From a virus, in IMG/VR virus record IMGVR_UViG_3300001748_000015, positions 1 to 32,411 of that record: a DNA stretch of 32,411 nt; one strand, 5' to 3'. Position 1 is the first letter of the stretch; each line of letters opens with the position of its first letter. Below are positions 18,414-19,766 of the stretch, piece by piece. The position numbers and the translations under genes were made by a program. Under the pieces are notes generated by a model. That model had not been told where the DNA came from and did no database searches. It saw only the letters and a list, made by a program, of their open reading frames with translations.

Positions 18414-19561
18414 GCTATGCCTCACTGGGGCGCAATCTCTACAGGAGAGGTAAGACGTTCTACTTCAGGGATCAATCCAAGCGTCAAAGAGAATGGATAC
18501 GATTACAAGCATCCACAACGAGCGAAGCACGCAGAGAGGTCGCTCAACATGTATCAATCTCAGCATGCCCTCCACAAGAACCAACGGTTCACGATGTCTT
18601 AAAGTTTTACCTCGACCACAATTGCCCCAAGCGTAACGAGCAACCCAGGTCGAGTAGGCAGTTAGACATGGAGATCCAACGGGTTTCCACCCTCTCAAAA
18701 TTCTTCATTCATTACCCATCATCACAAGTTAATCACTCAACTCTACGCGCATACCGCGAATGGAGAGGGCAGACACGTGCATGCGAGCTTGATATCGCCA
18801 CACTTGCTGCCGCATTCAGGTGGGCCTATCGGAACCCCGACATGACAGGGCTTTACGACAACCCAATGCCACATGATAGGCCGAGGTTTGCGAAACCCAA
18901 GACACATTGCAGGGATAGGCAACCATTAAACGCTGATCACTTGCACGCCATTGCTCGATCAATGATGTCAGATCCGCGATCAGGGTGTATGGGTTGGATG
19001 GTTCTGTTTCTTGCGCTCACCGGACTTCGTAGGGACAAGGCCAGGTTCTTTCAGTGGGGAGCGTCCAGCCATAATCCAGGTCACAATGATGGTGAATGCA
19101 TATGGGTTGGAGTGAGCGAGACACACAAGGGAGTGTTCCCGTTCATCCGGTTTCATGATGCACTTTTATTATGGTGGAACGCCTTCGTTGAGTGGCGAAA
19201 ACAGGAGAATCTTGCTAGTCCATGGTATTTCCCTAGCCCAAGGAACCCATCGTTACCCGTCTCAAGGGACGGACTGGGCCAGGCTATGCGTCGAACATGC
19301 AAGCAGCTTGGCATCCGGTCATGCTCACCTCACGGCCTCCGGTCATACTACGTCAACGTGCTCCGGTCCAACGGAGTCATGGATTCTGAGATTGCTTTAC
19401 GCATCGGCCACCGATCTGGAGGGAGATTGATAGTTGATGTTTACGGGGAGGTGCTGCCTCATTCTATTTCATTCATGCCTGACAGTCATCCAGCCTGGAG
19501 TGCTACTGATTGTGCTACTGATTTTCACAGTAAAACGGTGCAGAAAGATTGCGTAACATGA
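18410..19561 (+). CDS. int: Tyrosine recombinase / phage integrase 1
   Basis: Product of 383 residues from a GTG that overlaps the previous stop. An N-terminal arm-binding-like region (about 1-50) and a core-binding domain precede the catalytic domain. Candidate catalytic residues are Arg207 (LTGLRRDKA), Lys240 (SETHKG), His308 and Arg311 (SPHGLRSYY), His334 (IGHRSGG) and Tyr345 (VDVYGEV), so the full set is present. It would join phage and host DNA at a specific site. The gene ends 48 bases before a complete tRNA-Arg gene, a classic integration target, with 12-base tandem repeats inside its own 3' end (19500-19523). Other proteins would be needed for excision; the small coupled regulator is a candidate. 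Confidence 0.92.
   Translation: MSYASLGRNLYRRGKTFYFRDQSKRQREWIRLQASTTSEARREVAQHVSISACPPQEPTVHDVLKFYLDHNCPKRNEQPRSSRQLDMEIQRVSTLSKFFIHYPSSQVNHSTLRAYREWRGQTRACELDIATLAAAFRWAYRNPDMTGLYDNPMPHDRPRFAKPKTHCRDRQPLNADHLHAIARSMMSDPRSGCMGWMVLFLALTGLRRDKARFFQWGASSHNPGHNDGECIWVGVSETHKGVFPFIRFHDALLLWWNAFVEWRKQENLASPWYFPSPRNPSLPVSRDGLGQAMRRTCKQLGIRSCSPHGLRSYYVNVLRSNGVMDSEIALRIGHRSGGRLIVDVYGEVLPHSISFMPDSHPAWSATDCATDFHSKTVQKDCVT
19500..19523. repeat. Tandem 12-base repeat, candidate integrase arm sites (left)
   Basis: Two perfect adjacent copies of GTGCTACTGATT (19500-19511 and 19512-19523) lie in the 3' end of integrase 1. An 11-base copy, TGCTACTGATT, recurs at 19745-19755 on the other side of the tRNA. 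Spaced direct repeats on both sides of a core are the layout of integrase arm-binding sites in an attP. Confidence 0.55.
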
Positions 19562-19566
19562 CGGCT

Positions 19567-19582
19567 CAACTTACGCAAGTTG
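19567..19582. repeat. Small palindrome CAACTT-ACGC-AAGTTG
   Basis: Perfect 6-base arms with a 4-base spacer, six bases after the integrase 1 stop. An 8-base piece of it, ACTTACGC (19569-19576), recurs at 19699-19706, just downstream of the tRNA. No T tract follows, so it is not a typical terminator. It could be a protein-binding site of the attachment region. Confidence 0.4.
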
Positions 19583-19609
19583 TTGATACTGTTTCATCCC
19601 TCCTATGGC

Positions 19610-19686
19610 GCACCCGTAGCTCAATTGGATAGAGCGCCTGACTACGGATCAGGAGGTTTGGGGTTCGACTCCCTACGGGTGTACCA
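19610..19686 (+). tRNA. tRNA-Arg (anticodon ACG)
   Basis: Cloverleaf read directly: acceptor GCACCCG pairs with CGGGTGT (first pair G-U); the D arm is GCTC...GAGC; the anticodon stem CCTGA/TCAGG encloses the 7-base loop CTACGGA with anticodon ACG; the T arm is TGGGG-TTCGACT-CCCTA; the discriminator A is followed by an encoded CCA (19684-19686). ACG reads CGU and, after A-to-I editing, CGC and CGA. It is a complete tRNA next to integrase 1. Both flanks are phage genes, so it is either the tRNA part of attP (able to restore a host tRNA-Arg after integration) or a tRNA carried by the phage. Confidence 0.95.
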
Positions 19687-19744
19687 TTTCTTTCAAGGAC
19701 TTACGCTTACTACAGCCATTATTTCTGGCGGGTTTTCGCTCAAA

Positions 19745-19766
19745 TGCTACTGATTTAGAAGTAGCA
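19745..19766. repeat. Third copy of arm repeat and small hairpin
   Basis: TGCTACTGATT (19745-19755) matches the tandem repeats at 19500-19523. TGCTAC (19745-19750) also pairs with GTAGCA (19761-19766) as a 6-base stem with a 10-base loop. On the minus strand this hairpin is followed by TTTGAG, so it could be a weak terminator for the terminase transcript as well as a right-hand arm site. Confidence 0.45.

Follow-up and report, generated by a model that had tools for sequence, protein, structure and literature searches.

A complete tRNA-Arg(ACG) gene lies between a tyrosine integrase gene and the large terminase gene of a phage contig. We consider it likely that this locus is the unintegrated attachment site (attP) of a temperate Verrucomicrobia phage that targets the host tRNA-Arg(ACG) and would leave a whole tRNA at both junctions after integration. 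The window analyzed here comprises 32,411 bases, the last part of a 69,286-base IMG/VR record (3300005512_000020, a phage contig); a window position p corresponds to record position p + 36,875, and the coordinates of features given below are those of the window.

The tRNA-Arg locus and its phage context

The window opens with tail genes. Next come replication genes that point leftward and encode DnaB helicase, SSB, and a Sak4-like protein; integrase 1 and the tRNA follow, and beyond the tRNA lie the large terminase, the second of two integrases, a gene for a large helicase, and another for a CobS-like ATPase. The following features are relevant to the locus and its surroundings:

18410..19561, plus strand: tyrosine integrase 1 (383 aa; PHROG_1, E=1.2e-25; Pfam Phage_integrase just above the cut-off)
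19500-19511 and 19512-19523, plus strand: tandem pair of GTGCTACTGATT copies within the 3′-terminal part of the integrase gene, putative binding sites for the integrase (P arm)
19585..19609, plus strand: host-like tRNA leader, from a -10-like region to -1, with the host -35 region absent
19610..19686, plus strand: complete tRNA-Arg(ACG) with encoded CCA, the sole tRNA called by ARAGORN in the window, predicted to hold the attP core
19641..19647, plus strand: anticodon loop, the predicted crossover region based on where tRNA identity starts
19744..19767, no strand assigned: putative P′-arm sites, namely ATGCTACTGATT on the plus strand (19744-19755) and an inverted 8-mer copy, AGTAGCAC (19760-19767)
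19777..21396, minus strand: large terminase (PHROG_2, E=2.7e-23; Pfam Terminase_3), which places a phage gene beyond the tRNA
22779-23849, minus strand: second tyrosine integrase (PHROG_1, E=1.3e-36), 3 kb from integrase 1
29108-30481, minus strand: CobS-like ATPase (PHROG_249, E=3.9e-54)

Integrase 1 is situated upstream of the tRNA and points toward it, with the tRNA starting 48 b past the integrase stop. Its active site is intact, comprising R, HxxR, H/W, and Y residues (TGLRRDK, HGLR, GHRS, and VYGE when aligned with homologues). The original prediction had placed a complete tRNA-Arg beside an integrase, with phage genes continuing on both sides, and both points were borne out, the replication genes and integrase 1 being located to the left of the ARAGORN-called tRNA and the large terminase to its right. 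A further 36.9 kb of the record extends to the left of the window and encodes small leftward genes as well as rightward virion structural and tail genes. Because the structural genes and the sole identified terminase are thus on opposite sides of the tRNA, the latter most likely resides within one phage genome. Neither end repeats nor a further copy of the tRNA-Arg were detected in the 69-kb record.

The site running from integrase 1 through the tRNA to the terminase was spanned by one assembly only. A second contig (3300001419_001875) was 100% identical to window positions 2791-18304 and ended ~100 b before integrase 1; being identical to the window and stopping at 18304, it was rejected as independent support. 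As for terminase relatives with synteny across the tRNA, only a distant one was recovered (41%), which had no tRNA and was set aside. We also noted a paired tRNA-Leu(CAA) (70 nt as called) and tRNA-Met(CAT) on the minus strand of the record (G001), to the left of the window (L004:14066-14238). For the second integrase, no homologues were found at E<=1e-20 in 116 genomes of the host order, and no att site was found.

The tandem copies of GTGCTACTGATT, which had been predicted to end integrase 1, form a 24-b stretch that is the sole perfect tandem 12-mer in the window. On the other flank, ATGCTACTGATT matches 11 of the 12 bases, as proposed, although the spacing had been given as 59 bases and in fact the copy starts 58 b after the last base of the tRNA, leaving 57 bases between them. 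When up to one mismatch was permitted, the 12-mer had three matches in the window versus 0.15 expected, and none of the shuffles reached three. Flanks of the same geometry shared a 12-mer (<=1 mismatch) in 23 of 600 random placements (~4%), such that the third copy by itself is only moderately significant. We regard the tandem copies as a strong signal, and the repeats on both sides of the predicted core as putative arm-type sites. The 8-base repeat ACTTACGC, which was also reported to flank the tRNA, does occur at 19569 and 19699, but 17% of random placements share an 8-mer, and the pair was rejected as an arm or core repeat and attributed to chance.

Host tRNA identity and the targets of the integrase family

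A search of a collection of 84,980 species gave exact matches to the 3′ half of the tRNA (45 nt) at only four loci, all from Verrucomicrobia: casp40-mb.164 (L006), Pedosphaera MED719 (L007), SCGC AAA164-E04 (L008), and C_MB218_1 (L009). These four genomes group together as a single small family in that collection. Candidate host genomes had been suggested as the place to look for this tRNA, and in two of them (L006/L047 and L009/L048) identity extended across all 77 of 77 nucleotides, while the tRNA differed by one base in L008, and by one base and an N in L007. From the anticodon loop through to its 3′ terminus, the part expected in the core of a canonical tRNA-gene attP, the tRNA in the window is thus identical to host genes.

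Resemblance to the host continued into the leader. Positions -30 to -1 of the phage sequence resembled the leaders of five host-family genomes, with at most 0.2% of shuffles and 0 of 500 phage windows being as similar, whereas positions -60 to -23 were unlike host leaders, which retain a conserved CTTG(CA) -35-like element there. Hence, the host-like block starts near -25, ends a few bases beyond the CCA, and does not include the -35 region, and no sigma-70 promoter was found ahead of the phage tRNA. Judged from the tRNA and its leader alone, the host appears to belong to marine Verrucomicrobia. The original prediction had also called for a search for prophages joined at this tRNA, and no prophage of this phage was found; the terminase and a close integrase were absent from all 11 host-family genomes, a small sample that says little.

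The last 27 nt of the tRNA were present on 13 IMG/VR contigs, one of which was the window's own record. In the other twelve (L010-L017, L019-L022), tRNA identity ran only from nt ~29-31 to the CCA, and the 5′ half was present in none (0/12). By eye, these twelve contigs represented about four sequence types, and wherever the contig extended far enough, a reading frame for an integrase started 36-51 b downstream of the CCA. Their integrases had no blastp similarity to either integrase of the window. These twelve sites have the appearance of standard attPs whose crossover falls in the anticodon region. Searching IMG/VR with the 5′ half of the tRNA recovered eight other contigs, with tRNA copies several bases off that of the window; their surroundings mostly resembled, by eye, host tRNA clusters or contig ends, and none could be established as a comparable counterpart. 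Integrase-like reading frames were seen by eye directly after the host tRNA-Arg(ACG) in L007-L009. Considering these frames together with the twelve viral contigs, marine Verrucomicrobia seem to have an integration hotspot at their tRNA-Arg(ACG).

Homologues of integrase 1 were recovered at 20 Verrucomicrobiota loci among 245 genomes of the host order, the best having 36% identity, and no phage records carrying a similar integrase were found. Fifteen of the 20 loci adjoined a tRNA-Arg, either complete (6) or as a piece (9). The fragment search relied mainly on Arg queries, so that pieces of other tRNAs would be missed; this bias belongs to the fragment search and does not affect the count made with ARAGORN, in which six of the nine complete tRNAs beside homologues were Arg (ACG, TCG, or TCT), the other three being Ser, Met, and Leu. 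Of the nine tRNA-Arg pieces, eight were 3′ fragments whose first base fell at nt 28-33, the remaining one matched nt 1-39 only, and the 5′ half was absent from all eight of the 3′-fragment sites. The proposal that a complete tRNA is unusual is therefore upheld, both by the half-tRNA contigs and by the fragment sites beside homologous integrases. Moreover, because tRNA identity begins at nt 28-33 in the conventional attPs and in the attR sites of homologous elements, we place the predicted crossover in the anticodon loop.

One complete integrated element (G130:C57) provided a direct comparison of layout. It consists of a whole tRNA-Arg(ACG), ~9 kb of sequence, an integrase 31% identical to integrase 1, 130 b, and then, with direction unchanged, nt 32-77 of that tRNA. 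Order and spacing in the window are alike, the distance between integrase residue 363 and nt 32 being 143 b. Three further homologues (L038, L039, L041) have the integrase followed by a tRNA fragment in the same direction, and each carries, at the integrase end, a tandem repeat with a period of 12 bp (e.g. GAGTAGTATCAAGAGTAGTAACAC). In other homologues, the tRNA piece lies ahead of the integrase start or the integrase faces the 3′ end of the tRNA, showing that layout varies within the integrase family. Additionally, in a single genome, two contigs (G229:C896, L031, and G229:C259, L082) share an end point 44 b upstream of the same tRNA-Arg, one having an integrase after the tRNA and the other none; they possibly represent an occupied and an empty site within a single population.

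Proposed integration model and alternative explanations

The 77/77 host match, the usual target of the integrase family, the layout shared with G130:C57, and the homologue repeats of the same period together make it very probable that the locus is an unintegrated attP, as originally predicted. Neither relatives integrated at an unrelated site nor host genes directly beyond the tRNA were seen. Counting against an attP reading are the lack of a prophage of this phage in the host-family genomes searched, the single assembly across the site, the ~4% chance level of the third repeat taken alone, the low identity of integrase 1 to its homologues (only 25-36%), and the possibility that the active enzyme is the second integrase (22779-23849).

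Based on the sequence, integrase 1 would bind the arm sites on both flanks and pair the phage tRNA with the host tRNA-Arg(ACG), with strand exchange in the anticodon loop, the exact crossover being a prediction. The resulting attL would consist of the host promoter, the host 5′ part, and the phage 3′ part, and attR of the phage leader, the phage 5′ part, and the host 3′ part. Because the phage retains nt 1-30 and a short host-like leader, integration should leave a whole tRNA at both junctions, giving the lysogen two copies; the 5′ half is missing in conventional attPs, so that the usual lysogen would have one whole gene and one fragment. With no host-like -35 region, the attR copy would perhaps be expressed by read-through from the integrase gene, 48 b upstream. 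Imprecise excision, or homologous recombination with the tRNA of a lysogen, would suffice as a source of the 5′ half. It is conceivable, albeit somewhat doubtful, that the attP amounts to a complete, working host tRNA gene that is duplicated with each integration, both junctions being whole. The related proposal, that the phage donates a functional tRNA, we infer only conditionally, since the searches yielded no integrated copy and the -35 region of the host promoter is missing ahead of the phage tRNA.

The isotype of the phage tRNA is that of the inferred target, which would also be expected under tRNA-dependent lysogeny, a mode described for actinobacteriophages, whose cores measure 8-17 bp (PMC10865867). 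Under this reading, a short attP core would be positioned elsewhere near an integrase, and the phage tRNA-Arg would replace a host tRNA-Arg broken by integration. We consider this very improbable, because outside the tRNA no anticodon-arm matches of at least 9 b were present near either integrase, the two 8-b tRNA matches near integrase 1 did not derive from the anticodon arm, and the tRNA is itself bracketed by the repeats and is as far from the integrase as the core is in homologous elements.

It seems very unlikely that the tRNA is an ordinary one for phage translation, adjacent to the integrase by chance and with the attP elsewhere. Although the same phage encodes tRNA-Leu(CAA) and tRNA-Met(CAT) far away, and integrase 2 offers another integration system, the Leu and Met tRNAs are a separate pair ~42 kb off, and an ordinary translation tRNA is at odds with the 77/77 host identity, the host-like leader, and the usual targeting of the same tRNA type by the integrase family. 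Furthermore, phage use of the codons read (CGT, CGC, and CGA) was not clearly raised over that of the host. A hotspot at the Verrucomicrobia tRNA-Arg(ACG), with integrase-like frames after the host gene in L007-L009, could instead bring two mobile elements to abut at the host's own tRNA, on a chromosomal or chimeric contig. Yet no host genes were seen on either side of the tRNA, the promoter conserved in the host family (-35 CTTG) is missing upstream, similar repeats are present on both flanks, and the split of the structural genes from the sole identified terminase by the tRNA likewise argues against abutting elements, rendering this explanation, too, very unlikely. We favor the unintegrated attP of a temperate phage, a reading that ties this phage to marine Verrucomicrobia.

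Comparison with known tRNA-associated integration systems

In a conventional tRNA-gene attP of a tyrosine integrase, crossover occurs in the anticodon loop and the core is the 3′ half of the tRNA. The locus described here resembles such sites in that an integrase adjoins a tRNA-derived core, candidate arm repeats are present on both sides, identity to the host runs from the anticodon loop to the CCA, and the same tRNA is used by twelve other viral contigs. It differs in that conventional attPs have only nt ~29-77, whereas the window has all 77 nt plus the leader, departing from the canonical retention of the 3′ part alone, and in that the integrase is upstream of the tRNA rather than 36-51 b downstream of the CCA. 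The open-access literature yielded no named precedent in which a complete tRNA serves as the attP core; older or subscription papers may hold one.

Genomic islands provide a second comparison. Islander recognizes these from a whole tRNA paired with a displaced fragment and discards matches inside full-length tRNAs (PMC4383910). The target logic and integrase class are the same as those of our locus, but because full-length matches are discarded, elements with two whole tRNAs, as predicted here, would be missed. Island finders that seek one whole and one broken tRNA would thus have a blind spot for prophages with two whole copies.

Finally, tRNA-dependent lysogeny has been described for Fionnbharth, Gabriela, Gaia, and other phages (Guerrero-Bustamante and Hatfull 2024; PMC10865867), in which the core is 8-17 bp and a tRNA located elsewhere complements the broken host gene. 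Shared with these is a temperate phage with a complete tRNA of the attB isotype (attB being inferred here). Unlike in those phages, identity in the window spans the whole tRNA, the tRNA itself is the apparent core, and no gene would be broken, such that the attP of the window is related to tRNA-dependent lysogeny but distinct from it. The authors of that work considered its evolutionary relation to canonical integration not clear, and suggested that a long core could become less necessary once a tRNA of the same isotype has been gained (PMC10865867). A whole tRNA and a long core at one place would be an intermediate of the kind predicted by this idea and, if true, a possible link between canonical rebuilding of the tRNA gene and tRNA-dependent lysogeny, in which a same-isotype tRNA is already owned and the long core not yet lost.
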